Shown in pieces: positions 6,240-63,100 of a DNA stretch of 64,000 nt. The position numbers and the translations under genes are program-made. Numbering within the stretch: the stretch's first letter is position 1; each line of letters begins with the position of its first letter. The notes under the pieces are model-generated. The model ran no database searches. It was given only the letters and a program-made list of their open reading frames with translations, and had not been told where the DNA came from. This DNA is from Bolinopsis microptera (Eukaryota > Ctenophora > Tentaculata > Lobata > Bolinopsidae), in assembly GCF_026151205.1 (NCBI RefSeq), contig NC_087081.1, forward strand, positions 17,151,058 to 17,215,057, written 5' to 3'.

Positions 6240-7080
6240 TCTAATGTTTCACGTGTCTCCTTCTAATGTTTCACGTGTCTCTTTCCAATGTCTCCATGTA
6301 TCTTCTTCCAATGTCTCCATGTTTCTTCTTCCAAAGTGCTCTCGATTCTCCTTCACAGGTCTCCACGTGTCTCCTTTCATATGTCTCTTCCCAATGCCAT
6401 GTGTCTTTGTCCAATGTCTCCATGTGTCTTCTTCCAATGTGCTCACGTGTCCCTTCACAATTCTCCACGTGTCTCATCCAAATGTTTCCATATGTCTCTT
6501 TCCAATGTCTCCATGTGTTTTCTTCCAATTTGCTCACGTGTCTCCTTCACAGGTCTCCACGTGTCTCCTTCTTTTGGACTCTTCCCTGTTTGCTCTTTCA
6601 CGTCTTTTTCTTGTCTCTTTCTGCAGGTCCGCATTATTTCTATTGTTGGAAACTCTCATTCTTCATGCCTGGGTCTTCTATCCGTCTTCCCTTTTCATTC
6701 ACTTCTTCTTTAAGTTTCGTTTCCCTTTTAGTTCCCGTTTTCTTCTTTTTCGACCATCCTCTCCAAGCTATCTATCTCCGTTTCTCCTTCTCTATTTTTT
6801 CCGATCCATGCTTCCATGTGACCTCCAATCCATCTGTCATCCAATCTGTCTTCGATCTATACTTCCATGCGATCTCCAATCCATGTGTCCTCCAATCTGT
6901 CTCCGATCCAATCTGTCTTCGATCCATTTTTCTATGTGACCTCCAGTCCATCTGTCAGCCAATCTGTCTCTCCGATCCAATGCCTCCGATCCAATGTCTC
7001 CTTGTGTCTCCTCCAAAAGTTTCTCCTTCTAGATTTACCCTGAAAATAATGGTTAATGCTTTGTCACCACTCGCCATGTT
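6240..7080. repeat. Degenerate pyrimidine-rich repeats
   Basis: The plus strand is C/T-rich with many degraded copies of GTGTCTCCTTC, CCAATGTCTCCATG and GATCCAATCTGTC. Long overlapping open frames exist on both strands (for example 5977-6939), but their proteins are low-complexity Ser/Phe/Leu repeats with no domain. I treat the region as decayed satellite DNA and not as a gene. Confidence 0.7.
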
Positions 7081-9523: not shown

Positions 9524-10623
9524 AAGCAGTCATCACTTGCTTCAGATTCGTAGATTATTTGTAGTAATTTAGGTTACGAACAACAAAAACAAAAGTAATA
9601 ATGACGTTAAAAAAGGGTAAGAAACAAAATGATTAACAATCCAATTACTACAAAATACACTTCCTAATTACTCTGACTTATAACGCCCTACATCTACTGT
9701 AAAACACACGTCCTTGCTCTACCCTTACCTATCACGGTTAATCCTCGTTAACCGTCTCTAACGGAGTCTTACCCTTAAACTACACTTACATAACACTTTC
9801 ATCCTCGCTGACCGTCCTTATATCAGGCCCAAATCCACTATAATTCATTCTCGCTCTACCTGAGCCCGATTGTTGTTGACACGAACCCACTCGTGTTGGA
9901 TTAACCCGTGTTAACCCTGGCTACAACACAGCCTATTCCTGCTCCCCTGAGTTAACCATTGTTGACTCTCTCTACGCTTAAGCCAGACTGCTCATGTCCT
10001 CCGCACAGTTCCACTAACTACAGACCACGATAATGCTCTCTCCAGGACCCTAACGTAACAGGTCCTGGCTCCAAAGTAACCTATATCAATGGCCCTCGAA
10101 TCGGGCAAACTCTATCTCTTCTTCTGACCTTTCCACCGGACCTTATATAATGTCCTGTCCGTGGTTTTTCACCCGACCTCTCTAACCAGACTCACGTGCC
10201 CCTGCTCACACCTTTGGCAGCTGGTCTTATCTCCCACTAAAGCTTCATTGTCCCGAGTCCAGGTGTTACGACTATTCATCTTTTTACCAAAGCTTCCTGT
10301 CTGATGACCTCTGAATCCATAGTTTGTTTAGAACTCACATCTATCTTTGACTCTCTATCTACACAAAGGCTTTACGTCTGAATTCTCCTAGAACCATTGT
10401 CTCTCCTCCAGAGTGACATGTTTCTCGTCCGTCCAGGTGAGGTCCAACCCACAATCTCCATTGTATTCTCTTTCTCTAACTTTCCCTAACCACAGACCAG
10501 AACTGGATGTTCCACTTCCACTGCCTTATTACACAATACTGCCTTATTACACAATACTTGCCTTATTACACAATACTATCTAAAATCTATCAAATAATAT
10601 AGATCAAATAATCACGGCTTACA
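9524..10623. repeat. 1.1-kb direct duplication, right copy
   Basis: Direct repeat of 4102-5201 with the same ends and the same net length. The high identity implies a recent duplication or continuing gene conversion. Confidence 0.9.
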
Positions 10624-11711
10624 TCAGGTTTAAGGTTTTTTGAACGACTGATTTCATCACAACTGAACAATGCAAATGGTGAGTGAAAGGAGAATTAATT
10701 GTTGATTTAGCAGCAATAGTATTATACAGACAGATCCATCTGAAAAAAATCGATTTACCGGCACACGAAGCTGATTATCCGGCTTTCTAAGGATTTTTGA
10801 CGTTTTTGAGTTCCATTCGTTGACCAACGGCAACTTTTCCAAACTTTTCCACGTCTTACGGCCACTTTTTCCACTTTTGCCACTTTTTACCACCTTTCTT
10901 GTTTGTCGAATATCTTTAGGTGTGAACATCGTAGAAAGTTACAGATTAATCGAGATTCGAGGGTGTTTATCTTACGTATCAACGAAAAAAACTTTTGTAT
11001 GAAAAAATTTTCCACCTAATCGGGCAATCATATAATTGGATAATTATTAATTAGCTAAATACTTAAAATCATAAAATGATTGGAATCGCTTGAAACACGG
11101 AGAAAAATTTCAACAATTTTTCACTTACATCTTTTTTTGAGACTTGAAAAATTTCTAAAATTCGGAAAAAAAAGTTCGCCAAAAGTGATAAAATTGCATG
11201 AAACGTGCTTTTCAGGAACACTTTGAAAATTTTTCGTGTCGGGAATAATAATGTTTGTTTGTTTGAAAACCAGTTTTTGCTGGTACCCATAAGGGCTTTG
11301 GAACCAATATATAATAAATTGTATGAATAAATCAAATCCCCGTGGGGTACGCGACATTCAAGATCTAGTTGCAAGCACATGTTATAAAACATTGTAAAAT
11401 AGCCTCAAGACCAGAACTGCATATTGCTTGGGCTTCCAGCCCAGTTTGCTCAACAGTTCGTGGCCTACTTACCTAACTTAAAACCTTAGTGCAATGCTTG
11501 CAACAACTAAAATCCTATTCTATAACTAAGTTACCCTATTACGTATAATCTAGAAGAGTGATGCAAAAAGTCAACTGATAACGCAACACAGTCTAATCAT
11601 ACTCTTATCAGTAGTTCCTCTAACCTCTGTTCTCAGTTATACAAAAAGTTTTAACTCCATGAAATTAACGTCACACACATACACAAATGCTTGACTTTCT
11701 CAAATAATTAG
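10624..11711. other. Intergenic stretch, nothing recognised
   Basis: Short open frames on both strands (longest about 107 codons, minus strand 11069-11392) are Lys/Phe-rich and match no family I know. No RNA gene was seen. Confidence 0.4.
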
Positions 11712-12587
11712 TCACTCAGCGACACAAACTTTGTTGTTTTTTATGTAATATTTCTTGCTCGGGTCCTTCTTGATTCCCTCTTTCATTTCCTGTACGAGCT
11801 TTTGGCGAGAGATTCGCTCATCCTGCGACCTGTCTGGAGATAAGTAGAGTTTGTTGTAGTTGAAATTGTAGTCTGCCACATCAACCGATTTCAAGACTTT
11901 TGCTCTGCTCAGAAATTCACGTACAATTTCAGGATCTCGCAAAGTAACTTTTATCGGCCGTGATCGAGGGCTGTCAGACTTCTTTACTCCCACTCTCTCA
12001 ATGTTTGTTATAGTCGGCCTTCCAATGAACTTCATAAAACCCCAAATATCACCCACGAGATCCCGTTCGTTCATTTCTTGCTCTTCACATTCGAGCTGTT
12101 CTGGGGCCCCGAAGATGATAAAGTTTTTCGACCGATCATCTTCTGTAATCGCCGATTTCACAGCCATTTTGATTTTAGCTGGAGAGATATCAGAAGCTAC
12201 GCTGTTATTCTTCACAACATCTGTAAACAGTTTCATTTCTGTTTTCACTGTCTCCTTCACTGAAGCTAGTTTACCAGATTTGCATTGGATGAGCTCGTTC
12301 TGAGTTTTTATCTGTTCTGATTTCTGTTGGTCAAGCGTCTCTGCTGCTGATCTCAAAACATTTCTCGATTTACATATCATAGACCCCATCTTCAAAACTA
12401 TTTCGGTTATTACATCCTTTGTAACGCCTTTTGGCTTGAACAAGTCATGAGTGAGGTCCTCTAGTTTCCTGCAATTAAGATTCGCTAAAACCGAGTCTGA
12501 TAAGTCCTCAATCTGTTTCTCCAGTTCGTGAAGTGTACTGACCGAAAATTCCATATTGTGTATACTTCGTGTATAGCAAAGCTGCAC
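11712..12587 (-). CDS. LINE ORF1-type protein, intact frame
   Basis: This 291-codon minus-strand frame encodes a protein with an N-terminal helical, coiled-coil-prone half (about residues 15-110, rich in Lys, Glu, Gln and Leu). It is followed by a segment typical of RRM-like retrotransposon ORF1 proteins: DDRSKNFIIFGAPE near residue 150, then IERVGVKK, a KVTLRD strand and a basic C-terminus. The same layout and related motifs occur in the damaged copy near 51.4-52.0 kb. Such proteins bind LINE RNA in the cytoplasm as a chaperone. There is no endonuclease/RT frame next to it and no element ends were found, so it is either a 3'-truncated LINE remnant with an undamaged ORF1 or a captured host gene. 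Family assignment is from motif memory only. It starts about 220 bp upstream of, and divergent to, the protease gene. Confidence 0.65.
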   Translation of the reverse strand: MQLCYTRSIHNMEFSVSTLHELEKQIEDLSDSVLANLNCRKLEDLTHDLFKPKGVTKDVITEIVLKMGSMICKSRNVLRSAAETLDQQKSEQIKTQNELIQCKSGKLASVKETVKTEMKLFTDVVKNNSVASDISPAKIKMAVKSAITEDDRSKNFIIFGAPEQLECEEQEMNERDLVGDIWGFMKFIGRPTITNIERVGVKKSDSPRSRPIKVTLRDPEIVREFLSRAKVLKSVDVADYNFNYNKLYLSPDRSQDERISRQKLVQEMKEGIKKDPSKKYYIKNNKVCVAE

Positions 12588-12649
12588 AGTAAAAGGCAGT
12601 GCAATTACCTATTTACTGATAAGAGACAACTGATATCAACTCACAAGCG

Positions 12650-12752
12650 AAAAGATTGATTGCACACTGAAAAGATTGATTGCACACTGGAAAAGATTGA
12701 TTGCACACTGAAAAGATTGATTGCACACTGAAGATTGATTGCACACATAAAA
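12650..12752. repeat. 20-bp tandem repeat upstream of protease
   Basis: About five copies of a GAAAAGATTGATTGCACACT-like unit lie just upstream of the first protease exon recognised. They may be promoter-proximal or in a 5' intron; no function can be read from them. Confidence 0.85.
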
Positions 12753-12804
12753 TCGCAAATATTTATAGTTATTAGTTATTAGTTATTAGTTATGCTAATT
12801 CCAG

Positions 12805-15800
12805 ATTGTTACGCACCTGCTACTGGTTCTGATTGTCATCCAGTCCATCACTACTGAACAACCAGGGAAAGCAACAGATGATTGGGGAGACAGTCCAGCG
12901 CAAACTTTAATTATTAACGGTGAAGATACTGAAAAGGGAGAGTACCCCTTTATGGTTAGTCTGTTTATTATTATCAATTATTTACTAGTTATTATTACAA
13001 ACTGGGCACAAACTAACTATATTGCGTCAGGTACGTGTGACGACACTAGAAGGAGACTAACTATAATGCGTCAGGTACATGTGACGACACTAGAAGGAGA
13101 CTAACTATAATGTGTCAGGTACGTGTGACGACACTAGAAGGAGACTAACTATAATGTGTCAGGTACGTGTGATGACACTAGAAGGAGACTAACTATAATG
13201 CGTCAGGTACATGTGACGACACTAGAAGGAGACTAACTATAATGTGTCAGGTACGTGTGACGACACTAGAAGGAGACTAACTATAATGTGTCAGGTACGT
13301 GTGACGACACTAGAAGGAGACTAACTATAATGTGTCAGGTACGTGTGACGACACTACAAGGAGACTAACTATATTGTGTCAGGTACGTGTGACGACACTA
13401 GAAGGAGACTAACTATAATGTGTCAGGTACGTGTGACGACACTAGAAGGAGACTAACTATATTGTGTCAGGTACGTGTGACGACACTAGAAGGAGACTAA
13501 CTATAATGTGTCAGGTACGTGTGACGACACTAGAAGGAGACTAACTATAATGCGTCAGGTACATGTGACGACACTAGAAGGAGACTAACTATAATGCGTC
13601 AGGTACGTGTGACGACACTAGAAGGAGACTAACTATAATGTGTCAGGTACGTGTGACGACACTAGAAGGAGACTAACTATAATTTGTCAGGTACGTGTGA
13701 TGACACTAGAAGGAGACTAACTATATTGTGTCAGGTACGTGTGACGACACTAGAAGGAGACTAACTATAATGTGTCAGGTACGTGTGACGACACTAGAAG
13801 GAGACTAACTATAATGTGTCAGGAACGTGTGACGACACTAGAAGGAGACTAACTATAATGTGTCAGGTACGTGTGACGACACTAGAAGGAGACTAACTAT
13901 AATGTGTCAGGTACGTGTGACGACACTAGAAGGAGACTAACTATAATGTGTCCGGTACATGTGACGACACTAGAAGGAGACTAACTATATTGTGTCAGGT
14001 ACGTGTGACGACACTAGAAGGAGACTAACTATAATGTGTCAGGTACGTGTGACGACACTAGAAGGAGACTAACTATAATGTGTCAGGTACGTGTGACGAC
14101 ACTAGAAGGAGACTAACTATAATGCGTCAGGTACATGTGACGACACTAGAAGGAGACTAACTATAATGTGTCAGGTACGTGTGACGACACTAGAAGGAGA
14201 CTAACTATAATGTGTCAGGTACGTGTGACGACACTAGAAGGAGACTAACTATAATGTGTCAAGTACGTGTGACGACACTAGAAGGAGACTAACTATATTG
14301 TGTCAGGTACGTGTGACGACACTACAAGGAGACTAACTATATTGTGTCAGGTACGTGTGACGACACTAGAAGGAGACTAACTATAATGTGTCAGGTACGT
14401 GTGACGACACTAGAAGGAGACTAACTATAATGTGTCAGGTACGTGTGACGACACTAGAAGGAGACTAACTATAATGTGTCAGGTACGTGTGACGACACTA
14501 GAAGGAGACTAACTATAATGTGTCAGGTACGTGTGACGACACTAGAAGGAGACTAACTATAATGCGTCAGGTACATGTGACGACACTAGAAGGAGACTAA
14601 CTATAATGTGTCAGGTACGTGTGACGACACTAGAAGGAGACTAACTATAATGTGTCAGGTACGTGTGACGACACTAGAAGGAGACTAACTATAATTTGTC
14701 AGGTACGTGTGATGACACTAGAAGGAGACTAACTATATTGTGTCAGGTACGTGTGACGACACTAGAAGGAGACTAACTATAATGTGTCAGGTACGTGTGA
14801 CGACACTAGAAGGAGACTAACTATAATGTGTCAGGTACGTGTGACGACACTAGAAGGAGACTAACTATAATGTGTCAGGTACATGTGACGACACTAGAAG
14901 GAGACTAACTATAATGTGTCAGGTACGTGTGACGACACTAGAAGGAGACTAACTATAATGTGTCAGGTACGTGTGACGACACTAGAAGGAGACTAACTAT
15001 AATGTGTCAGGTACGTGTGACGACACTAAAAGGAGACTAACTATAATGTGTCAGGTACGTGTGACGACACTAGAAGGAGACTAACTATAATGTGTCAGGT
15101 ATGTGTGACGACACTAGGAGGAGACTAACTATAATGTGTCAGGTACGTGTGATGACAATAGAAGGAGACTAACTATATTGTGTCAGGTACGTGTGACGAC
15201 ACTAGAAGGAGACTAACTATAATGTGTCAGGTACGTGTGACGACACTAGAAGGAGACTAACTATAATGTGTCAGGTACGTGTGACGACACTAGAAGGAGA
15301 CTAACTATAATGTGTCAGGTACGTGTGACGACACTAGAAGGAGACTAACTATATTGTGTCAGGTACGTGTGACGACACTAGAAGGAGACTAACTATAATG
15401 TGTCAGGTACGTGTGACGACACTAGAAGGAGACTAACTATAATGTGTCAGGTACGTGTGACGACACTAGAAGGAGACTAACTATAATGTGTCAGGTACGT
15501 GTGACGACACTAGAAGGAGACTAACTATAATGTGTCAGGTACGTGTGACGACACTAGAAGGAGACTAACTATATTGTGTCAGGTACGTGTGATGACACTA
15601 GAGGGAGACTAACTATATTGTGTCAGGTACGTGTGACGACACTAGAAGGAGACTAACTATAATGTGTCAGGTACGTGTGACGACACTAGAAGGAGACTAA
15701 CTATAATGTGTCAGGTACGTGTGACGACACTAGAAGGAGACTAACTATAATGTGTCAGGTACGTGTGACGACACTAGAAGGAGACTAACTATATTGTGTC

Positions 15801-18800
15801 AGGTACGTGTGACGACACTAGAAGGAGACTAACTATAATGCGTCAGGTACGTGTGACGACACTAGAAGGAGACTAACTATAATGTGTCAGGTACGTGTGA
15901 CGACACTAGAAGGAGACTAACTATAATGTGTCAGGTACGTGTGACGACACTAGAAGGAGACTAACTATAATGTGTCAGGTACGTGTGACGACACTAGAAG
16001 GAGACTAACTATATTGTGTCAGGTACGTGTGACGACACTAGAAGGAGACTAACTATATTGTGTCAGGTACGTGTGACGACACTAGAAGGAGACTAACTAT
16101 AATGTGTCAGGTACGTGTGACGACACTAGAAGGAGACTAACTATAATGTGTCAGGTACGTGTGACGACACTAGAAGGAGACTAACTATATTGTGTCAGGT
16201 ACGTGTGACGACACTAGAAGGAGACTAACTATAATGTGTCAGGTACGTGTGACGACACTAGAAGGAGACTAACTATATTGTGTCAGGTACGTGTGACGAC
16301 ACTAGAAGGAGACTAACTATAATGCGTCAGGTACGTGTGACGACACTAGAAGGAGACTAACTATATTGTGTCAGGTACGTGTGACGACACTAGAAGGAGA
16401 CTAACTATATTGTGTCAGGTACGTGTGACGACACTAGAAGGAGACTAACTATATTGTGTCAGGTACGTGTGACGACACTAGAAGGAGACTAACTATATTG
16501 TGTCAGGTACGTGTGACGACACTAGAAGGAGACTAACTATATTGTGTCAGGTACGTGTGACGACACTAGAAGGAGACTAACTATATTGTGTCAGGTACGT
16601 GTGACGACACTAGAAGGAGACTAACTATATTGTGTCAGGTACGTGTGACGACACTAGAAGGAGACTAACTATATTGTGTCAGGTACGTGTGACGACACTA
16701 GACGGAGACTAACTATATTGTGTCAGGTACGTGTGACGACACTAGAAGGAGACTAACTATATTGTGTCAGGTACGGGTGACGACACTAGAAGGAGACTAA
16801 CTATATTGTGTCAGGTACGTGTGACGACACTAGAAGGAGACTAACTATATTGTGTCAGGTACGTGTGACGACACTAGAAGGAGACTAACTATATTGTGTC
16901 AGGTACGTGTGACGACACTAGAAGGAGACTAACTATATTGTGTCAGGTACGTGTGACGACACTAGAAGGAGACTAACTATATTGTGTCAGGTACGTGTGA
17001 CGACACTAGAAGGAGACTAACTATATTGCGTCAGGTACGTGTGACGACACTAGAAGGAGACTAACTATATTGTGTCAGGTACGTGTGACGACACTAGACG
17101 GAGACTAACTATATTGTGTCAGGTACGTGTGACGACACTAGAAGGAGACTAACTATAATGTGTCAGGTACGTGTGACGACACTAGAAGGAGACTAACTAT
17201 ATTGTGTCAGGTACGTGTGACGACACTAGAAGGAGACTAACTATATTGCGTCAGGTACGTGTGACGACACTAGAAGGAGACTAACTATATTGTGTCAGGT
17301 ACGTGTGACGACACTAGAAGGAGACTAACTATATTGTGTCAGGTACGTGTGACGACACTAGAAGGAGACTAACTATAATGTGTCAGGTACGTGTGACGAC
17401 ACTAGAAGGAGACTAACTATATTGTGTCAGGTACGTGTGACGACACTAGAAGGAGACTAACTATTATGTGTCAGGTACGTGTGACGACACTAGAAGGAGA
17501 CTAACTATAATGTTTCAGGTACGTGTGACGACACTAGAAGGAGACTAACTATATTGTGTCAGGTACGTGTGACGACACTAGAAGGAGACTAACTATATTG
17601 TGTCAGGTACGTGTGACGACACTAGAAGGAGACTAACTATAATGTGTCAGGTACGTGTGACGACACTAGAAGGAGACTAACTATAATGTGTCAGGTACGT
17701 GTGACGACACTAGAAGGAGACTAACTATAATGTGTCAGGTACGTGTGACGACACTAGAAGGAGACTAACTATAATGTGTCAGGTACGTGTGACGACACTA
17801 GAAGGAGACTAACTATAATGTGTCAGGTACGTGTGACGACACTAGAAGGAGACTAACTATAATGCGTCAGGTACGTGTGACGACACTAGAAGGAGACTAA
17901 CTATAATGTGTCAGGTACGTGTGACGACACTAGAAGGAGACTAACTATATTGTGTCAGGTACGTGTGACGACACTAGAAGGAGACTAACTATAATGTGTC
18001 AGGTACGTGTGACGACACTAGAAGGAGACTAACTATAATGTGTCAGGTACGTGTGACGACACTAGAAGGAGACTAACTATAATGTGTCAGGTACGTGTGA
18101 CGACACTAGAAGGAGACTAACTATAATGTGTCAGGTACGTGTGACGACACTAGAAGGAGACTAACTATAATGTGTCAGGTACGTGTGACGACACTAGAAG
18201 GAGACTAACTATATTGTGTCAGGTACGTGTGACGACACTAGAAGGAGACTAACTATAATGTGTCAGGTACGTGTGACGACACTAGAAGGAGACTAACTAT
18301 ATTGTTTCAGGTACGTGTGACGACACTAGAAGGAGACTAACTATATTGTGTCAGGTACGTGTGACGACACTAGAAGGAGACTAACTATATTGTGTCAGGT
18401 ACGTGTGACGACACTAGAGGGAGACCACATGTGTGGAGGGTCTCTAATAAGTCCCCGGATAGTTCTCACTGCTGCCCACTGTGTAGTGTTTGATGGTGTA
18501 AAGATAAGTGTAGAGATGGAACGTGTGGTGGTGGGGGACCACACCAGTGAAACTGAGGAAAGTGAGCAGATTGCGGAGGGTAGTCGTATTATTGTTCATG
18601 ATAACTACCATCTCGACCAACTCGGAGGTGGGGGTTAACCAAGTTAACAACTTTTTAGATTTAGGGACAAATATTTGTATTTTTCGAGTCTATCATTTTA
18701 TTACTATAATTTTACGTATAACTTTGTAATCGTTGGTATCAATTGTGCTCTTTTCAATAGAGACATTATGAAAATACATATATATATGTGATATAAATAT

Positions 18801-20685
18801 CATAATTATTAATTAATTAATTAATTTTCACAATTTTTACAATTATTGAAGACGTGTAGGTCTAATATAATAATGTTACAGTTCCTATGAACGACGTGGC
18901 GCTGATAGTACTGAAGGAAGAAGTAAGAGTAAAAGAGGGCGTGGTCGCCACCATTGCACTAGCAGAGGATAACAGTCATTACACAGAAGGGACCTCTGTT
19001 ACTGTGATAGGATGGGGAGTGATTGGAGACGAGGGAGAGTATGAGGACCTTCCTATTGCAGACACCTTACAGGAACTAGTGTACCAGATAGCCAACAAGG
19101 ACGAGTGTGAGCAGTATTGGGCAGATGATTATGAGAAATATGAAGATATGTACGGAGCTGTTGACTATGAGCTGGAAATTCCCGGTTCGCTATTTCTTTG
19201 ATTTCAAAACACAGTTATTATATCTATAATATATATCTAATAAGTATAAAGTTGCAAAATAATTATCCTAGTAATTTGTGCACGTCTTGTATCGTTTTTT
19301 TAACAGATAATCAGGGTGAACCCCCCCCCCCCCCCTTAACAGATAACAATCGCCCCCACTATCGTACTGATCCATCTCCCGATCTTCTTAATACATATGT
19401 TTCCACAGCTGACCATATTACACTATATATTTCCACAGAGAGCACCATGTAACCATGGTAACCATAGTAACCATATATTTCCACAGAGAGTACCGTGTAA
19501 CCATGGTAACCATGATAGTAACCCTATATTTCCACAGAGAGCACCATGTAACCATGGTAACCATAGTAACCATATATTTCCACAGAGAGCACCATGTAAC
19601 CATGGTAACTATAGTAACCATATATTTCCACAGAGAGCACCATGTAACCATGGTAACCATAGTAACCCTATATTTCCACAGAGAGCACCATGTAACCATA
19701 GTAACCATGATAATAACCCTATATTTCCACAGAGAGCACCATGTGCGTGATTGATCCTGATCGGGAGGCTACTGCCTTTGCTGGGGACTCTGGAGGCCCA
19801 CTTTTCGTGAAATCTGGAGAAAACTTCGCACAAATAGGCTTAGTGAGCTGGGGAGCAGGGGACGCGAAAGAGAAAGCGTACAATATGTTCCTTAACCTCC
19901 ACCATTATACTGACTGGGTTAAAGCTGCCATGAAGCGAGCTGAAGCAGAGTCATGGTTGGAACTGCACACGGGAGCTAACCATGGGGTGGTGGTGATACA
20001 CGATAACACGGGACACAAGACCACTATTTGTAATGACAATGTGGGTAAAGACGAGGTGAATGCTATTTGCAGAGAACAGGGCTACAAAATGGGAGTTCTC
20101 GCTGACGTTAGAGAGTACAGACCAGATAGGAAACGTAGAAACCAGGATGGAGATACCACACCATTCGGGCAGACAAATCTGAAATGTAGTGCTGAGGCTA
20201 AAGATGTGATGTCGGAGTGCACAATGGATAAGTACGGCGAGTCTGAAGTGCCGTGTTTTAGCGGGGAGGAACTAGCAGTGAAGTGCGCTAACCAGGTGTG
20301 GCACTTCAAGGTAACCCGCATTGTGCCCAAAACTAGGACCGTTAAAGGTACCAGCTTTGTAAAGGGTAAAGTAATCTGTGAGGTTACCGCTAGCAAATAT
20401 GGTATGAACCTGGATTTGAAATCTCACGTGAGAGTAGGCCTAGTAATGAGAGGAGTAGATGGTGTAGAGGAAGTAGATGCTGATATGAAGTACAAGAGGA
20501 GGATGAACGCTTATACGTCTAAAGTTAAATCTACAGACGAAATAAAGGAGGAGGAATGTTTTGCTTGCATTGCTTACGTGGGAGGCACCACAATCTACAC
20601 TGTAGCAACACATGGTCCTGATGATTGTCCTGACATTGACCAACATTACCAGCAGTGGGTGAAGGAGCAAGGCGACCAGAATTAG
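12805..20685 (+). CDS. Secreted trypsin-fold protease with SRCR-like C-terminus
   Basis: Four exons join in phase: 12805-12954, 18399-18627, 18882-19184 and 19733-20685 (544 codons plus stop). Counting from the first exon, residues 4-16 form a hydrophobic secretory signal. IING (36-39) is the activation site, and the catalytic triad is His77 (TAAHC), Asp131 (NDVAL) and Ser247 (GDSGGP). The position equivalent to chymotrypsin 189 is Thr and the Cys191 equivalent is Phe, so trypsin-like Arg/Lys preference is not expected. From about residue 300 an SRCR-like segment follows (ICNDNVGKDEVNAICREQGY), then about 140 residues unknown to me. Such proteins act outside the cell. Exon 1 is preceded by an in-frame TAA and an acceptor-like CCAG, so the initiator Met must lie in an undetected upstream exon. 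Introns 1 and 3 contain arrays of their own splice acceptors. Donors are GTTAGT, GTGGGG and GTTCGC. Confidence 0.88.
13012..18398 (+). repeat. 44-bp array of splice acceptor plus exon start
   Basis: This array fills protease intron 1. GTACGT starts at 13031 in the first copy and 18399 in the true exon, a distance of exactly 122 x 44 bp. Each unit holds GTACGTGTGACGACACTAG, then AAGGAGA, then CTAACTATAATGTGTCAG. The first 26-27 bases copy the start of the next exon, CTAAC is a branch-point match, and TGTGTCAG is the 3' splice site. Read from GT to AG, each unit is a complete 44-nt intron candidate. In the exon's reading frame each copy reaches TAA after nine codons (after GAC). A few units have lost a signal: CAG to CCG at 13951, CAG to CAA near 14261, GT to GA near 13821. 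ATAATG and ATATTG variants are unevenly distributed, with a long ATATTG-rich stretch near 16.4-17.1 kb. Confidence 0.97.
19390..19729 (+). repeat. 48-bp array of splice acceptor plus exon start
   Basis: Intron 3 of the protease ends with six decoy copies of its own acceptor, TATTTCCACAG, followed by AGAGCACCATGT, the first 12 bases of the true exon at 19733. Decoy CAGs end at 19438, 19486, 19537, 19585, 19633 and 19681; the true one ends at 19732. Spacing is 48 bp, or 51 bp where a triplet is inserted. In every copy the exon-derived bases are followed by AA, making ATG TAA in the exon frame where the real exon has ATG TGC. A C-run (19321-19334) and another TTTCCACAG (ending 19408) lie just upstream. 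Confidence 0.95.
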
Positions 20686-21105
20686 TCGAGATTTAGTGTA
20701 TTGTATAATTTGGCCTTAAACAATTGTAAAGACTCACTGTTTATTGTTTAATAATGCTTTAACTCTTTTTAGTTGTTTTACAAGTTTACAATCACTCACA
20801 TTACTTATTGATAAATTTAAAATGTTTTGTTTAAATTTCCCATCATTTATCTAATCCCAGGGTCACCAAAAACATTTAGACCCACCTACCCTGATCTCCA
20901 AAATCCCTCCTTTTTACTATTATCCATTCGTAACCATCCTTTACTTTTTTAAGTGGTGGATGGAAAAAATTAAACATAAGTGATAAGGTACTCGAAGAAG
21001 TTTAAATTAGATGATGATCGCTATTTATCAAAATTTTACAAGAATTATTAATTAAGCTTAAATAAATCATTTTGTTTTCTAGCTGAGAACTAGCTTAAAA
21101 CTCAC
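20686..21105. other. Protease 3' flank and end of recognised dnmt1
   Basis: The protease stop is at 20685. A plus-strand AATAAA occurs near 21060 and a minus-strand AATAAA near 20740. No CXXC-, BAH- or methyltransferase-like exon is seen on the minus strand here. Read-through of the last recognised dnmt1 exon would add nine codons and stop at 21079. Confidence 0.5.
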
Positions 21106-24100
21106 AGTTGCTTGCATTTGATCCACGAAAATGGCCTCGAAGGAAGATTGTACGAGGGGCGTGACAGTGGCGTGCGATATGTCCGTACTTTTAGTTTTAC
21201 CAGCAACCTGGGGGTCCACAATTTTAAATAAATTATCAATTTTCAGGAGCGCAATAGAATTACAAATATGCGCTAAAATGTACAGATCCAACAACCCGTT
21301 TTAGAGGTAACTTTTGAAAAGTTGAAGTAACAGTTGAAGGTTAACAAATATTCATTGCAACTTACTGCTGCCTAGCTAAATTTAACAAACCTTAAGTTTA
21401 ACATTAACGAGAGCTCTATGAGAGTTAGCTGGCTGTGTCCCGCCCAGAGTAACTCCAGCCAGCTGGATAAGCCCTCTCACTGCGGGCACTGTGATCAGTA
21501 GGTCCTCATCATCGTCAGCAGCCTGACAGTTATTAGATAATTAGTTAATTAGATAATTAGTTAATCAGATAATTAGTTATTTAGATAATCAGTTAATTAG
21601 ATAATTAGATTTTCTTGCCCCTTGTTCATGTATACATGTTAAGATACAACTTTAATTGGGTCAACTACATTCTTAATAAAACTGAAAATATAACAAAACT
21701 AAATCCTAAATAAAACTAACTCTATCATAGCTCTCGATCTGCTCAATTAGAAACTGAGCGTGCTTCAGAAGAGTTTCCTCGGAGAACTTAGCGCAGTTCT
21801 CGGGGGGCACTACTAGCTGAACACAGTTGATCAGATCCTCCATCGTCATATCTGAGAGGTAGTCACTATTTTAGTAGTAACTTATCTTTTACTACCTCAG
21901 GTACTGGAATATAAGTATTACGACTAAAATCGCTAATTTTTTCTTTTTTCCCCCATTTTTTTAATGAAATCCACTCGGATATAAAATTTGGTTCAAGAGC
22001 TTGGATCTGCAGTGGTCGGGTGGACTTCACCACTGCACTGCTACTATATCAGTATTAGCATATTATTAGCATATTATTAGCATATTATTAGCATATTATT
22101 ATATGTTAATTTATAAACTACAAACCTGAATCCTCCTCCAATATCTCGATTACTGTTTTGCTAAGATAGGTTTTCTCACGTAACATGTCGAATAAAAGGG
22201 CATACTGTTCACTGGGTTGGGATAACAGATAGTCTGCATATGCTGACAAGAGAAGTAGTGTTATGACACACCACGTGTTATGACGTCACACCACGTGTTA
22301 TTACGTCACACCACGTGTTATGACGTCACACCACGCGTTATGACGTCACACCACGTGTTATGACGTCACACCACGTGACCATACTGTTCACTAGGTTGGG
22401 ATAACAGATAGTCTGCATATGCTGACAAGAGAAGTGGTGTTATGACGTCACACCACGTGTTATGACGGCACACCACGTGTTATGACGGCACACCACGTGT
22501 TATGACGTCACAACACGTGACCATACTGTTCACTGGGTTGGGATAACAGATAGTCTGCATATGATGACAAGAGAAGTGGTGTTATGACGTCACACCACGT
22601 GTTATGACGTCCCACCACGTGTTATGACGTCACACCACGTGTTATGACGTCACACCACGTGTTATGACGTCACACCACGTGACCATACTGTTCACTGGGT
22701 TGAAATAACAGATAGTCTGCATATGCTGACAAGAGAAGTGATCTTATCAGTCAACTTGGTTGGGTAATAAATTTACTCAGAATTACATTGAACAAAAGCC
22801 CCGGTATAAAGTGGTAAAGTAGGGGTAGGGTAAATTGGAGTTTTATTGTACCAACCTTATTCCTAAACACACAATAATGAACAGTACACAATAATGAACA
22901 GTACACACATATAACACAGTACCTGTGGTGAAGCCTATTAGTTCTTTCTCCCCTCCATCAAACCCAGCTATGTACCAGGAATCAATGGGACCCAGTCTGG
23001 AACCCCGCACTCCACCTGAATGTGGTGAATGTTATATTATATATTATATATAATATGTTATCAGATAACCTAATCTATTTTAGTACAGGTATAATATTAA
23101 TCTGTGTTCAGTGGCATAACTGTACATGTAGGTTCAGCATAACTGTACATGTAGGTTTATTGTAGGAGAAGATGTTTCACCTTGAAGACTTGGGGAATCG
23201 TCGTAGATAGGTTTAACATAACCACTAAAGTAGAGATGTACATTCTGGTCTATCAATCCTGGGAGTAGATAGGTTTAATGTTTAATGTTTATACAGGCGA
23301 GTAGTATGTATAATAGTACCGCTACACAGGCGATCAACCAGGGTACCGTTGTATCGTAATATCGAATATTGGCTATTGATATAATGCTTAAACATTTATG
23401 AACATGATAAATAAGATGAGTGTAAGTAAACAAGTCCATCTTTAATGGATTTTCATTGACTAAGTCTCAACTTCCTTGACTAAGTCTCGCTTAGTGCCTA
23501 GAATTTGCCCAAACTGTGCAAATATAGCCCCCTGTGCACCCTATCAACATCAGTTAAACAAAAATTCAGTTAAACAAAAATTCAATTTTATGCCATTTAT
23601 TACAGAGTAAACAAGTTTACAATAAATCAATTTGATATTTAAAGGAATCCTAATTCAATGTGTAGTATGGTTGTCACTCTTTAAATAGATTAGATATAGG
23701 TTGACGGGGCAAAGGAGTGTGCGTGCTGTTCGCTATTGCTCACACCAAACGGCAACCTAGTAAATGTTTTGTATGGACACCGGTCTCCATCACGATACAA
23801 AATTAGGATTGTAGAATTTATTGTATAACTTTTAGTGCAGTGGAGGAAGCGGTGTGGTGCATTGATAGAGTGACAGCCTACTGATTTAGAGTTGTTTTTA
23901 AGTGAGCATAATGGGTATATTTTTGGACCTAAAGGCTTCACTATGGCAACTTTAAAATTGGTTCTTTTAATCATTTATTAAATATCACTTAAAAAATATA
24001 TAAATCTGGAATCTGTTCACACTGTGAACCAGTCCTATAAAAAAACCTCTTAAATCAAATATTTAAAACGTCTCAATAATGGAAATAGTCATACAATTAA

Positions 24101-27100
24101 GAAATTTACCAAACTTTAATATCTACCTTAAAAGAAAAATACCTACCTATGTCAATGTCTACCTGTAATACACTAAATATTAGGTTAAATACATAGGTGG
24201 TGGAGTCAGCACACATTTACCAAAATCAAAAATATTTTAATAGGAGGAACCTGTGGGCCGAGAACACTGGATTAAATTTGTTGAAGGGGATTGTTTTCAA
24301 ATGACAGCTGCATTATGTCATAATCGCTTGAAGTCCATGCTGAATCATTATAAGCATGTTGCAGCTTTAGAAGTGCCTTTTTCAGGCGACTTTTAGCAAG
24401 GCTAATCTTGTAGGAGTAGTCAAAAAGCTTAAGTTTAGGTGCAATTGTGCTCCAAATTTTTGTGGATCTTGATATGAAGTCATTAGATGGGAGTTGTGAC
24501 AAGGCTACCCACCCATAGCACTGAAAACAGATTATCTGCTATTTCTAACTCACCAGTGTCAAAGGGGCACAAGTGACCATATTCATCATACACAGTAAAG
24601 TCAGTGATACGATGCTGCGGTTTTTCGTTCCACTCACTGTCACCTGACAAAAATACAAATTTTAGATCGAATTATAAATCAATTTCGTTATGATTCCCCC
24701 AATTCCTAAATCATTTATTTAGAAGAACTGAAAAATTCAGCAGATAGAACTTTTACAAAATTTCCACCAAAAGATGTAAGTTTACCATTACTGTCAGCGT
24801 CAAACAGGGACAAGGACTCTGAAGCCAATGCAATGAACTCCTCTACAGCATCAGCATCATCACCTCCGAACATCTTCAACGATTCAGAATCCAGCAGCTG
24901 ATTTGAATATAACACTTGAATGAGCTAGTACATTAAAATTCATTTAATATATTGCTGACTCAATATTTATTTTTTAAATGTATATTATATACTAACTAGA
25001 GTAGAATTTGAACGCATTTAAGTTTTGTTAACTTACTTGTTTGCAGACATCACATTTCAAAGGCTTAGATGCAAGGCTTTTCTTTTTGAGATTCTTATTT
25101 GAGTCCCCATTGTAGTTTTCTGTTTTTAAACGCTTACTTGCTGGTCCTTCTGTTAGAAATGCATTCAGAGAACCAAGCTTTTCTTTAATTTCATGTAATA
25201 CAAGGTGTTCGAAAAGCATTGTCTCAAAAGTGTTTCTCAATAACAAATTTATTATGTATAAAGGATCGGTGGGTGTAATTCGAGTTGTATGGTCAGAGGA
25301 CCCTTGATAAAATTATTCTTTGACTATTACTAAGCTTAACATTTTGAATTTTTTGTACATACAAAAACAATTTAAAATGTTTTTCAAGAACAAATTGTTC
25401 AATATATTTTGCAATTCAATAACCAATGCATGACTTAGTTAGTATTGCTCTGAAATTCCTAACCTTGTTCTGTCAGAAACATTTGGCACAAGGTTTTGAT
25501 TTGAAAAAATTAAGCCAGTGCCATTTAAAGTCATATTATAGAAAGGTCGATCTGTACAAGAGCATCAAATAGTTTGATAGTTGGGGACGAAGTGAGAGTC
25601 TCCACTCAGTGTTTCAAAACGAATAGTTGTCAACGTTTCAGCACACACCTTTGTCATAGAAAACGTTGACAACTATTTGGGGGGGGGTCCAACTACAAAA
25701 AATACGAATACGAATTTCAAATTTTAGGGGTGCGTTCGTATTTTTTCGTATTTTTTCGTATTTTTTACCAGAATTTTTGTACTTTAGAAAAAACGAAATA
25801 TCCCAGAGAAATGGATCTATAAATCCATTTGCATTGGTATTCTCCGTTGTATCTTTGTATATTACACTGTATGACATCAAAGAAGATAAATAAGACGCAG
25901 CAAAACTGGTGAACAAATGAAAATACAATACTACGATTACCTATTAATTAATAATTGGAGTTTAGCTGCTTGTCAATCTCACGTAAGCGTAAATGTCAAA
26001 ATCACTGGGATATTATCACAATTCAGATATTATGATGTATTAATTGTGATTTATAAAGGTCTTTGAATGCTACATCACAGAATATTATTGCCAAATACGC
26101 ATTACGCATACTTTTAAAGTCTGGTAAGTTGGGTTCCTAAAACGAAATTTAATAAGCTTCGGCTGAACCCATTATATATTATAATATATAGACTATATAT
26201 ATGGCACATTCATATTAATATTCTATCAGATCTATCTTTAGATAAACTTATTACACAAAGTAGTCATGGTTATAGTAACAGCTTAAATTCCTTAGGATTA
26301 AAAATAGAGAAAAACTTCAAATTCTCTTAGTGATCTTCAAAACTTCTTTTGATAGGTAAATCTTACCATCTACATCAGACTTCACCCAAACATGATAGTT
26401 ATGATGGGTAGAACAAAAGGAGTTAGTGGGTACACGGCAGACAGACGACCTGTCACCCTTGCTGAATATATGCGATGTTGACATGAACAGAGCCTGCCCG
26501 CGGAACTTGACAGCTTGCTTGAATTTTTTCTTGTCGAACCAGCCCTTGTCACCAACAGATACACGTTTACAGTCTTTTCCAAGCGATTGACATGGCCGAG
26601 AAAGTGATACCCTGACGATACTGTAGCCTTTGATTCTCCTTTGGCGTGTATGACCTGCCATTGATGACCGACCGTCGTTCATGAACTTCTCAGCAGCAGT
26701 ATCAACATGGCCTGGTACCAACGGCCGTCGGTTGTGAGAACTTCAGTTGACTGGTTATAAATCTACATTTCATCATCATCATCATTGGGAGCCTCAAGCT
26801 CAGCCTCTTCCCTGTCATCATCATCAACTAGAGTGCCAGGGAGCAATATCACAGTCCTTGTACTTAGTTGCACATTGGACTAGATAATGAACCATCCCTT
26901 CAAGGCCAGTTATAACGTCCTGGAGCCGTGATAAAGTGTTTACCTTTAGCCTTCCACTTTTCGCAAACATGATCCCCTGAAGAGGAGGAGGAGGACTGAG
27001 GAGGAGGAGGAAAGGGAAGAGGACGAGGACTGAGGAGGGGAGGAGAACTGGGGGATGACTGAGGAGGAGAAGGACTGAAGAGGACTGAGTAGGAGTCAGG

Positions 27101-30100
27101 AGGAGGAGTAAAATGATGAAGACTAAGGACGAGGAGGACTGAGGACTGAGGACGAGAGCGAGGAGGAGGACGACTGATAAGAAGGAGAAGGAGGAGGAAG
27201 AGAAGGACTGGGGAAGGACTGATGAGGAGGAGGTCTAAAGACGAGGAGGACTGAGAAGGAAGACGAGGACGAGGAGGACGACTATGAGGAGGACTGAGGA
27301 CGAGGACTGAGGAGTGGGAAGAGAACTGGGGAGATGACTGAGGAGGAGAAGGACTGAGGAGGACTGAGGAGGAGGAGGAGGAGTAAAAGGATGATGACTA
27401 AGGACGAGGAGGACTGATGACTGAGGACGAGAGCGAGGATGAGGAGGAGGACGAATGATAAGAAGGAGAAGGAGGAGGAAGAGGAGGACTGGGGAAGGAC
27501 TGATGAGGAGGAGGTCTAAAGACGAGGAGGACTGAGGACGAGGAGGACTGAGAAGGAAGACGAGGACGAGGAGGACGACTATGAGGAGGACTGAGGACGA
27601 GGACTGAGGAGGGGGAGTAGAACTAGGGGATGACTGAAGAGGAGAAGGACTGAGGACGATTGAGGAGGAGGAGGAGGAGTAAAAGGATGAGGACTAAGGA
27701 CGAGGAGGACTGAGGGCGAGAGCGAGGACGAGGAGGAGGCCGACTGATAAGAAGGATAAGGAGGAGGAGGAGGAGGACTGGGGAAGGACTGATGAGGAGG
27801 TCTGGGGGACGACTGAGGAGGAGGAGGATGACCGAGGAGTAGGAGGAGGAAGAGGACTGAGGAGGAGAAGGAGGAGGGGGAGGAGACTGAGGAGGAGGAC
27901 TGGGGGCGGACTGAGGAGGAGGAGGAGGACTGAGGAAGTAGGAGGAGGACTTAGGAAGGAGGAGGAGGAGGAGGAGGAGGACTGGGGGAGGACTGATGAG
28001 GACTGAGGAGGAGGAAGAGGACTGTGGAGGAGGACTCAGGAGGAGGACTGATGAGGAGGACTAAGGAGTAAGGACGAGAACGAGGACGACTATGAAGAGA
28101 ACTGAGGAGGAGGACTGATGAGGAGGAGAAGGAAGAGGAGAAAGAGGAGGAGGATGAGGACTGGGGACGATGAGGAGGAGGGCTCAGGAGGAGGAATACT
28201 TAAGAGGAGGAGAAGGAGGACTGATGAGAAGGAGGAGGAGGACTCAGGAGGAGGACTCAGGAGGAAGAAGACTTAGGAGGAGGAGAAGGAGGAGGAGGAG
28301 GACTGGGGAAGGACTGATGAGGAGGTCTAAAGACGAGGAGGACTGAGGACGAGGAGTACGACTATGAGGAGGACTGAGGACGAGGACTGAGGAGGGGAAG
28401 GAGACCTGGGGGAATGACTGAGGAGGAGAAGGACTGAGGACGACTGAGGAGGAGGAGGAGTAAAAGGATGAGGACTAAGGACGAGGAGGACTGAGGACTG
28501 AGGACGAGAGCGAGGACGAGGAGGAGGCCGACTAATAATAAGGAGAAGGAGGAGGAGGATGAGGAGGACTGGGGAAGGACTGATGAGGAGGAGGTCTGGG
28601 GGAGGAGACTGAGGAGGAGGACTGGGGGGATGACTGATGAGGAGAAGGACTGAAGAGGACTGAGTAGGAATCAGGAGGAGGAGTAAAAGGATGAGGACTA
28701 AGGACGAGGAGGACTGAGGACAAGAGCGAGGACGAGGAGGAGGCCGACTTATAATAAGGAGAAGGAGGAGGAGGAGGACTGGGGAAGGACTGATGAGGAG
28801 GAGGTCTGGGGGAGGACTGAGGAGGAGGAGGATGACTGAGGAGTAGGACTGGGGGAGGACTCAGGAGGAGGAGGAGGAGGACTAAGGACGAGAACGAGGA
28901 CGACTATGAAGAGGACTGAGGAGGAGGACTGATGAGGAGGAGAAGGAAGAGGAGAAGAAGGAGGAGGATGAGGACTGGGGAGGAGGAGGATGAGGAGGAC
29001 TCAGGAGGAGGAGGAGGAATACTTAAGAGGAGGAGAAGGAGGACTGATGAGAAGGAGGAGGAGGACTCAGGAGGAGGACTGGGGACGAGGCCTGAGGAGT
29101 GGGAGGAGAACTGGGGGATGACTGAGGAGGAGAAGGACTGAAGAGGACTGAGGAGGAGTCAGGAGGAGGAGTAAAAGGATGAGGAGGACTGAGGAGGGGG
29201 AGGAGAACTGGGGGGATTACTGAGGAGGAGAAGGACTGAGGACGAGAGCGAGGACGAGGCCGACTGATAAGAAGGAGAAGGATGAGGAGGACTGGGGAAG
29301 GACTGATGAGGAGGAGGTCTGGGGGAGGACTGAGGAGGAGGAGGAGAAGGAGGAAGGAGGACTGAGGAGGAGGAGGAAGACTGAGGAGGAAGAGGAATGG
29401 GGGAGGACTGATGAGAAGGAAGATGATTGTGGAGGAGGATGAGGAGGAGGACTCAGGAGGAGGACTCAGGAGGAGGACTGAGGAGGAGGAGGAGGAGGAG
29501 AACTAAGGACGAGAACGAGAACGACTATGAAGAGGACTGAGGAGGAGGACTGATGAAGAGGAGAAGGAAGAGGAGAAGGAGGAGGAGGATGGGGACTGGG
29601 GAGGAGGAGGATGAGGACTCAGGAGGAGGAGGAGGAATACTTAAGAGGAGGAGAGAGAGGACTGATGAGAAGGAGGAGGAGGACTCAGAGGACTCATGAG
29701 GAAGAAGACTTAGGAGGAGAAGAAGGAGGAGGAGGAAGACTCAGGAGGAAGAAGACTTAGGATGAGGAGGAGGAGGACTGAGGAGGAGGACTCAAGCCAA
29801 TAATAAGCATGTGTAACGATACAAATGTACTTGACTATACATTTAAGGTGCAGTGTACTATAGTGATATTATGGTATGTTTAAAGACCGGACCACAAAAT
29901 ATAACCCGGTACCTAGTGTTGTACTAATACATAATAACAAGTAACAGGGATAAAATCAATGAGCAGAAACAATCGATTTCACAAGAGGCGAAAGCACTCG
30001 GGTCTGGGAGTACATGATAACTCCAACTAGTAGTGAGCACAGTGGAAAAACACATAAAACATACTAATGGAATGTCCAATCGGTTCGTTTTCTCATCACA

Positions 30101-60113: not shown

Positions 60114-63100
60114 CTACTTGAAGTTATCGTACGGATGGTGGAAGCTGTCCCGTGTGTTATGTCTCGTTTCGAAGCCCCTCTCCGGGAATCCCCCTCTAAA
60201 CCCCGCACCCGGCTCGAAATGTCCAGCCCTGAAATCCACATCAGCGAAATGTTTAGAGTTCTGATAGTGCAGATCGGGGTGGGAGAACTTGTGGTCGAGA
60301 GGTTTAAGTTGTTTGGGAGGTCCGGGTTCCTCGTTAGATCTTGACATGATGGCGGGAAGTTGTCGGTATTTGCTGTCCAGAACTCTAGTGTTTCCTGGGG
60401 ATAAGGGAGTTAGGGAAACAGAAAGTTATTATAAATGTTAATTCTGTGTATATTTTGTGAGTGATTAGAACAAGTTAGTCAGCAAATACAAAAGAAGCAG
60501 CTGAAAGTTTCAGCAGCTGAAACGTTTGAAGGAGTTTTTCCATCATTGTCAGCTCAACTGCGTATGTAAACTCAGCTTTCAGTCCAAATAAGCGAATTCT
60601 AACTAAACCAACAGAGTGAATCTTAGGTAATTTGTTCAGCATTCCTTGTACTGGCCACTGGGATTTTGAACCCTCGCATAATTTTATTCCGAGTTCCTCC
60701 AGTTTTAACTAAAAGCAAATATAATGGCCCAGCATTAGTGAGTTAGCATTAGAGAGTTAGCATTAGAGAGTTAGCATTAGAGAGTTAGCATTTAGCAGAC
60801 TGCGGCAAAACGGAGCAATGAAGCGTTACCCTTGTCCGCCATCTTGAAATGTTTGTTGAGTTCAGGAATGCCAGTACGGAGTTCAGGAATGCCAGTACGA
60901 TTGTGCGGTTTAGGGGAGGGTTGAAGAGACGAGGGGTGGTGAGAGGGGGCTAGAGAGGTGGCTCCCAAGCTACACTGACTGATGTTAGAGCGCAGGAGGG
61001 GACGCTGCACTCTACCCACCACCAGACTCCTGTCCCTTTCTGCCAGGGTACATGTAGGGTTTTATTATGGCCCCTTACAAAGTTTACTTTATATTGGTTT
61101 CCAAATATCAGCTGAACATCTTGTTGAACTTTAGTTTTTAATTGACCATCTTGGCAAATAAGCAATCACAATACTGTGGACTACATATTTGTGCTGCAAA
61201 ATCTGGATAATTTATCATATAGTGAAAAATGTACAACGTAACTTTAACTTGCAAAGAGGTACAGTATAGTACGGCACGTAACTTTAACTTGCAAAGAGGT
61301 ACCGTATAGTACGGCACGTAACTTTAACTTGTAAAGAGGTACCGTATAGTACGGCACGTAACTTTAACTTGTAAAGAGGTACAGTATAGTACGGCACGTA
61401 ACTTTAACTTGTAAAGAGGTACAGTATAGTACGGCACGTAACTTTAACTTGCAAAGAGGTACAGTATAGTACGGCACGTAACTTTAACTTGCAAAGAGGT
61501 ACCGTATAGTACGGCACGTAACTTTAACTTGCAAAGAGGTACAGTATAGTGCGGCACGTAACTTTAACTTGCAAAGAGGTACAGTATAGTGCGGCACGTA
61601 ACTTTAACTTGCAAAGAGGTACCGTATAGTACGGCACGTAACTTTAACTTACAAAGAGGTACAGTATAGTACGGCACGTAACTTTAACTTGCAAAGAGGT
61701 ACAGTATAGTACGGCACGTAACTTTGACTTGCAAAGAGGTACAGTATAGTACGGCACGTAACTTTGACTTGCAAAGAGGTACAGTATAGTACGGCACGTA
61801 ACTTTAACTTGCAAAGAGGTGCCGTATAGTGCGGCACGTAACTTTAACTTGCAAAGAGGTACAGTATAGTGCGGCACGTAACTTTAACTTGCAAAGAGGT
61901 ACCGTATAGTACGGCACGTAACTTTAACTTACAAAGAGGTACAGTATAGTACGGCACGTAACTTTAACTTGCAAAGAGGTACAGTATAGTACGGCACGTA
62001 ACTTTGACTTGCAAAGAGGTACAGTATAGTACGGCACGTAACTTTAACTTGCAAAGAGGTGCCGTATAGTACGGCACGTAACTTTAATTTGCAAAGAAGT
62101 ACAGTATAGTACGGCACGTAACTTTGACTTGCAAAGAGGTACAGTATAGTACGGCACGTAACTTTAACTTGCAAAGAGGTGCCGTATAGTGCGGCACGTA
62201 ACTTTAACTTGCAAAGAGGTACAGTATAGTGCGGCACGTAACTTTAACTTGCAAAGAGGTACCGTATAGTACGGCACGTAACTTTAACTTACAAAGAGGT
62301 ACAGTATAGTACGGCACGTAACTTTAACTTGCAAAGAGGTACAGTATAGTACGGCACGTAACTTTGACTTGCAAAGAGGTACAGTATAGTACGGCACGTA
62401 ACTTTAACTTGCAAAGAGGTGCCGTATAGTACGGCACGTAACTTTAATTTGCAAAGAAGTACAGTATAGTACGGCACGTAACTGATGATGACGTCACACC
62501 AACCTGGAGGCTCGAAGGCGACTGCGTTAGGTTTAAGAGAGATGTGGGGGAGGATGTGCTCAGTTTCGTGAGGAATGTTAGGTATGTTATGAGGTATAGG
62601 GTTGTTAGGTCGCTCTGATTGTAATACTGCTTGGTTACTTGCAGGCTGAAATATTGTCAAGTGTTAATTTTACTTTTGCTGTCACCTTGGAAGCAGTCTC
62701 AAAACATATAACTTCTGTGACAATGTCACGTGGCAGAGTGATGACGTCACGCGACAGAGTGATGACGTCACGTGACAGTGTCACACACCAAGACAACAAG
62801 AGAATAAGAGACAAGTTAAAGGATAATAGACACCATAACATCACATTATACATATTATATATCACATCACATTGCAGTTACAACAGATTAGTATGTGTTA
62901 TATGCAGGTTCTCAAGTTAAAGACAAGGTATACGGTGGTTTAATGTGAAAAGTTATGACGTCACGTGACAAAGTGATGACGTCACGAGACAAAAGGATGA
63001 CATCACGTGACAAAGTGATGACGTCACGTGACAGAGGGATGACGTCACGTGACAGAGGGATGACGTCACGTGAATAACAATATTTGCTTACCCAGCCTTC

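Follow-up and report, generated by a model that had tools for sequence, protein, structure and literature searches.

What kind of event placed 122 copies of an exon's own edge inside the intron that precedes it, and how might such an intron still be spliced into a correct message? The locus lies in a 64,000-nucleotide stretch of the Bolinopsis microptera genome (contig NC_087081.1, positions 17,151,058 to 17,215,057, forward strand), which is called the window below. All coordinates refer to the window.

Intron 1 of a protease gene is filled by a 44-bp repeat

The host of the repeat is a five-exon trypsin and SRCR protease gene of B. microptera on the plus strand. Its open frame comprises 547 codons over five exons and contains Trypsin and SRCR domains; exon 2 alone gives a Pfam Trypsin match (E = 2.5e-14). 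Its total length is 10 kb in the window; a second gene copy (copy B, see below) covers 5.1 kb. Its parts, and those of the intron of interest, are as follows.

10670..10678, plus strand: putative protease exon 0, MQM, start of the signal peptide; ATGCAAATG/GTGAGTG is identical in both gene copies
12805..12954, plus strand: protease exon 1, IVTHLLL...EYPFM; frame open in both gene copies and in the protein P0002
12955..13030, plus strand: unique leader of intron 1, 76 nt, with donor GTTAGT, CTAAC and acceptor GCGTCAG
13031..18398, plus strand: array I, 122 units, each exactly 44 bp long, upstream of the true exon edge at 18399
18399..18627, plus strand: protease exon 2, starting with VRVTTLEGDHMCGGSLIS; the edge occurs for the 123rd time in its first 27 nt
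18882..19184, plus strand: protease exon 3, an open frame, from the coding comparison of both gene copies
19733..20685, plus strand: protease exon 4, with the last part of the protease domain, the SRCR domain and the stop

Two proteins deserve mention. The B. microptera protein P0004 (LOC134821825) matches the window's contig at 98% over 332 residues. The second, P0002, is a 545-aa protein 97% identical to the protease, with clean junctions at EYPFM-VRVTT and LEIP-ESTMC. Its source contig, whose tag lgn we take to denote the Logan assemblies, is 2,079 bp long and thus too short for a gene of 5.1–10 kb, so it should be a cDNA or else a retrocopy. P0002 is equidistant from both gene copies (9 of 18 differing sites are like each, and 6 are unique to it); it represents a different allele or a close relative, so that the clean junction is seen in the protein while its own intron lies outside the comparison. 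The protein is compatible with one-step as well as stepwise removal of that intron. Exon 0 is absent from P0002, whose first residue is the second M.

Intron 1 extends over 5,444 nt (12955-18398). A preliminary description of this DNA had reported that the edge of exon 2 recurs upstream 122 times at a 44-bp step, and both its coordinates and its counts are correct: together with the real edge at 18399 there are 123 edge copies, and TRF finds 123.0 copies with 97% matches and 0% indels. Each unit consists of 27 nt of the exon 2 edge and 17 nt of the intron end, and so spans the exon-intron boundary. GTACGT starts 112 of the 122 units, CTAAC is present in all 122, and CAG ends 120. The acceptor copies are directly followed by GT in 122 of 123 cases and keep their AG in 121, resulting in juxtaposed AG/GT. 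The duplication that gave array I thus supplies AG, GT and branch site at once, and 119 of 122 units read GT..CTAAC..AG. All three signals (GTACGT, CTAAC and CAG) occur together in 110 units. The earlier statement that every unit is a complete minimal intron thus holds for 110 to 119 of the 122, and "every" was slightly too strong.

Several other identities of the repeat were considered and rejected or not supported. A coding array is at odds with the unit length of 44 nt and with the presence of just three open reading frames of at least 50 aa that overlap 12955-18398: one of 50 aa (plus strand, exon 1 into the first array units), one of 96 aa (plus strand, last array units and exon 2) and one of 60 aa (minus strand, over exon 1 and the leader). 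For a structured RNA, three folds were no better than shuffles (z = 0.71, 1.08 and -0.26), and no Rfam match at gathering thresholds was found in 10500-23000. A dispersed repeat family was not supported: a search of the genome (264.65 Mb, 232 contigs) with the last unit plus exon 2 gave two candidate stretches, and the matches listed, out of 172, are all in these two array I loci.

A second gene copy carries a shorter array and an intact protease reading frame

A block of ~30 kb (window positions -6980 to 25496, with gaps) is repeated ~104-118 kb away on the same chromosome. It includes copy B of the protease, paralogous or haplotypic, ~105 kb from the window gene. Array I of copy B has 52 units, with lengths of 44 bp (46 units), 43 bp (4 units) and 45 bp (2 units). 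The leader (with small differences) and the first two units are common to both gene copies, and hence array I predates their split, and the lengths diverged afterwards. The difference between 122 and 52 units reveals length instability between the two gene copies.

These data bear on the possibility that the real array is short and that assembly inflated it. The length and exact copy number of array I come from one assembly, and near-identical units are hard to size. However, the 122 units fall into 23 types, and array length and variants at the second locus are distinct. The array there, with 52 units of which the first two are shared with the window gene, speaks against an artefact of assembly, which we consider highly improbable.

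Comparison of the window and copy B proteases over 544 codons gave dN of 0.016 (0.0158) and dS of 0.103 (0.1034), i.e., dN/dS of ~0.15; of the codon differences, 34 are synonymous and 18 nonsynonymous. The protease coding sequences, measured on both copies together, are under purifying selection, and the open reading frame is intact in both. The C-termini differ between the copies because the last exon of copy B contains a small array.

It had also been suggested that the decoys may poison the mRNA: splicing to a decoy would give messages that stop after nine codons, and expression would be lowered. The stop itself was borne out, at codon ten of the exon frame, in 122 of 122 units, and most messages would be wrong in a model with even acceptor choice. 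Against poisoning stand the purifying selection on both copies together, the two intact reading frames, and the exact junction of P0002, a cleanly spliced protein, though with its own intron outside the comparison. For a truncated isoform, a search with the 62-aa product expected from decoy splicing yielded no candidate, a weak result as the database may omit such short proteins. Judged from these sequences, genes of this kind seem to survive their decoys, and the protease appears to work. We find poisoning very hard to reconcile with this picture, although a minor share of poisoned messages may exist.

Array I probably arose by duplication across the 3' splice site

The 76-nt leader at 12955..13030 is likely the original intron. 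The preliminary proposal of growth by duplication of the acceptor together with the exon edge is supported by the leader common to both gene copies and by paralogs that have no array. The breakpoint in the exon is ...GGAGAC/CACATG and that in the leader is ...CAAAC/TAACTATATTGCGTCAG; the repeat fuses GGAGAC to TAACT, and the breakpoints therefore share a 2-bp AC microhomology. Two more distant paralogs at C10:12.18-12.19 Mb have an intron at the same position (TATG/GTGAGT...CTCAG/GTGCGA), and the 44-bp array was not found in either of the two as read there. Since their exon 2 also has AG/GT at its start, the AG/GT acceptor predates array I.

We propose that a 44-bp tandem duplication at the AC microhomology, spanning the acceptor of intron 1, would have occurred before the gene copies split, and that slippage or unequal exchange may then have expanded the array to 122 and 52 units. 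New units come to lie before the last acceptor, so that the intron grows in length and the exon remains intact.

Further acceptor-spanning arrays lie in the same block

The duplicated ~30-kb block contains five acceptor-spanning arrays, two of them in DNMT1. Their copy numbers mostly differ between the two block copies (window/copy B): 123/49 for array I, 7/2, 4/4, 1/29 and 2/5, where the 49 acceptor copies of array I in copy B are counted by a strict motif and become 53 when split by unit. The features inside the window are:

19412..19744, plus strand: array II in protease intron 3, junction AG/AG, with 7 copies of the acceptor in steps of 48 and 51 bp; copy B has 2
21409..21522, minus strand: DNMT1 exon with the array IV acceptor, single in the window and in 29 copies in copy B
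22126..22242, minus strand: DNMT1 exon, with sequence matches to DNMT1
22201..22747, minus strand: array III, 4 repeats of a DNMT1 acceptor with its exon edge, spaced 142-179 bp, 3 of them with AG; copy B has 4

In copy B, array IV includes 28 decoys with the junction AG/GC and no GT. A DNA search places the array IV exon at two genome sites, with its 28 partial copies confined to copy B, and the same 38 residues are read in both block copies. The DNMT1 assignment comes from a 120-aa piece of three joined exons, which matches solved DNMT1 chains (E = 5e-33, 110 residues), with a DNMT1-RFD domain match and an alignment that is gapless at the array IV junction. Array V lies at an acceptor of a gene to the left of the window and has the junction AG/GT, with 2 copies in the window block versus 5 in copy B; its putative exon is defined by an open frame. 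The idea that AG/GT arrays are larger than others was rejected, as array V (AG/GT) has 2 and 5 copies and array IV (AG/GC) 29.

We also surveyed arrays for coding-like flanks in the stretches read, judged from a codon table trained on the protease itself rather than from gene models. Among 67 non-redundant arrays, such flanks lay at the acceptor side in 12 cases and at the donor side in 3 at the 97th percentile (4.0 expected each); the corresponding numbers were 15 and 6 (6.7 expected) at the 95th percentile, and 4 and 1 (1.3 expected) at the 99th. In a smaller previous run on 101 arrays, with copies counted too, the numbers were 15 and 4. The acceptor-side excess is suggestive only. Two protease paralogs have arrays that begin at donors; both intron ends are thus affected, which speaks against a pure acceptor effect.

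A preferred last acceptor or a ladder of recursive steps

With even choice among 123 acceptors and no re-splicing, a simple model makes 0.8% of messages right. Correct splicing would thus require a strong preference for the last acceptor or repair of the message by recursion. In the latter case the intron would be removed in several steps, with CAG/GTACGT acting as zero-length exons and all routes leading to the same mRNA. The 110 units with all three signals are well formed for recursion. The calculated U1 pairing is stronger for the decoy donors (-9.8 kcal/mol) than for the real donor of exon 1 (-5.2 kcal/mol), with the other real protease donors at -10.0, -9.4 and -2.8 kcal/mol. When re-splicing at 0.9-0.99 is added to the even-choice model, the share of correct messages rises from 0.8% to 64-96%. 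There is a precedent in human UBC, which uses tandem dual-specific sites (PMC10809524).

The composition of the units, in contrast, does not speak for a ladder. Distinct variants number 12 at the 14 splice-signal positions and 19 at the 30 others, so that the signals are not conserved above background, in a count over 122 array I units and 46 full-length copy B units that has little power in a homogenised array. In the exon-derived parts of the units, 13 of the 57 possible nonsynonymous variants occur, and 3 of the 24 possible synonymous ones. Neither splice signals nor codons within array I units are visibly kept by selection. Splicing may need more than a single unit of 44 nt, in which case a ladder would have to proceed in steps of at least two units. 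Other arrays of the block point the same way: array IV, with 28 decoys at AG/GC, and array II, with AG/AG, exist without the option of recursion, whereas array V has an AG/GT junction and yet reaches 2 and 5 copies only. Given the 28 GC decoys of array IV in copy B, recursion seems unnecessary for tolerance, provided that this DNMT1 copy works.

We therefore favour the reading in which the acceptor adjoining the true exon is preferred and recursion possibly assists. Stepwise recursive removal of the array I intron is possible, judging by the form of the units, but we hold it to be rather unlikely as the main route. Under the favoured reading, the mature mRNA would still join 12954 to 18399, the acceptor beside the real exon body presumably being preferred through exon definition, and array I would be mainly a tolerated passenger. 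Splicing to a decoy would rebuild a donor, as each unit starts with a good one, and a further splice could correct the message; such rebuilding may aid tolerance, although it is apparently no requirement for such arrays.

We conclude that array I is probably a minisatellite of the "mirage" type described in amphioxus, formed by duplication across the 3' splice site, with the exon left intact, an mRNA joined from 12954 to 18399, and the array tolerated. We put the probability of this reading at roughly 0.7.

Discussion

Mirage minisatellites were originally described in 2002. According to later papers, they are tandem repeats across exon-intron boundaries of amphioxus genes, with splicing intact and variable length; the cases are Adh3, BflGb6, BflGb9 and TnC, with similar repeats in PGBD5 (PMC3087553, PMC3902484). 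Somatic instability is reported there for the Adh3 mirage. Array I has the same anatomy, a boundary-spanning tandem repeat, and "many, but not all" of the amphioxus repeats are said to have AG/GT signals. Unlike the amphioxus mirages in these accounts, array I belongs to a ctenophore, has 122 and 52 units, and is built of GT-CTAAC-AG units with the donor directly at the acceptor. An extreme form of mirage minisatellite, in a phylum new for mirages, accounts well for array I, the copy number of Adh3 being outside this comparison. In the open-licence literature on ctenophores and on boundary-spanning minisatellites, as far as accessible, we found no arrays of this type outside amphioxus; a paper on tandem repeats that alter human gene structure, seen in part, may contain comparable cases (PMC2812944).

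Other systems share single features with array I. The potato RdRp gene is a case of intron gain through tandem duplication over an intron-exon boundary (Rogers model). The same type of segment was duplicated, namely the 3' side of an intron with branch site and CAG plus the 5' side of the exon; there a single duplication produced a new intron that transcripts confirm, whereas the 122 units of array I are only putative introns (PMC4974935). Human UBC and VCX3A have AG/GT sites in tandem, each potentially a donor or an acceptor, as in array I. The UBC units, however, are coding and in frame, and their dual use is proven; those of array I are intronic and out of frame (44 nt), and their dual use is putative (PMC10809524). 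Recursive splice sites of Drosophila likewise juxtapose 3' and 5' motifs around AG/GT, but they occur mostly once per intron, in very long introns, and are proven by RNA, in contrast to the many DNA-read sites of array I (PMC6110457). Trans-spliced leaders are in use in the ctenophore Hormiphora (PMC8527503), and it is conceivable that decoy acceptors could attract such leaders.

If the recursive ladder were true, the intron would have 122 rungs, and the repeat could grow almost without limit because splicing erases it. Whichever route is used, genes of this block offer natural tests, with 1 to 123 near-identical acceptors, of how the spliceosome chooses the right acceptor, and the same genes bear on the recursive removal of AG/GT repeats. 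The small arrays (2, 5 and 7 acceptors) beside the large ones (29, 53 and 123) are material for studying intron lengthening and intron gain by tandem duplication. The comb jelly arrays at five acceptors of one block suggest that the birth of minisatellites across 3' splice sites is a more general process, and one that is still ongoing.

Arrays within and around a duplicated block

The protease and DNMT1 genes both belong to a collinear duplication of about 30 kb on C10, the chromosome carrying the window:

C10:17144078-17176553 (window -6980 to 25496, negative positions lying left of the window start), first copy
C10:17255978-17282266, second copy (copy B)
window 21409-22242, minus strand, ctenophore DNMT1 exons

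The two copies reflect either a true segmental duplication or the retention of a haplotype, and several minisatellites have unequal copy numbers in them. When both copies are counted together, DNMT1 contains two acceptor-spanning arrays, i.e., tandem repeats that cross a 3' splice site.

Other large arrays were also found in the window:

656-2300, regular, 24-bp units (68.5 copies, CTAAC within the unit)
61236-62483, regular, 40-bp units (31.2 copies)
26982-29790, irregular 2.8-kb GAGGAGGACT array

An array similar to the last, in opposite orientation, lies at C10:17249846-17251731. The palindromes CACGTG and TGACGTCA are common to several otherwise unrelated minisatellites:

window 22267-22681, 62725-62778 and 62955-63073
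L011 (another stretch read) 6600-6682
L033 (a protease paralog) 219-496

Further arrays in copy B and paralogs of the protease

In two protease paralogs, 22-bp and 14-bp arrays with repeated GTGAG motifs start at or beside the intron 1 and intron 2 donors:

L033 219-496 and 3626-3862
L034 287-354 and 3800-3968

The last protease exon of copy B (L010) carries an array of its own, flanked by a duplicated coding piece:

L010 214-288, 20-bp ACACCACGTGTTATGACGTC array

This exonic array is possibly a nascent intron or an altered C terminus.
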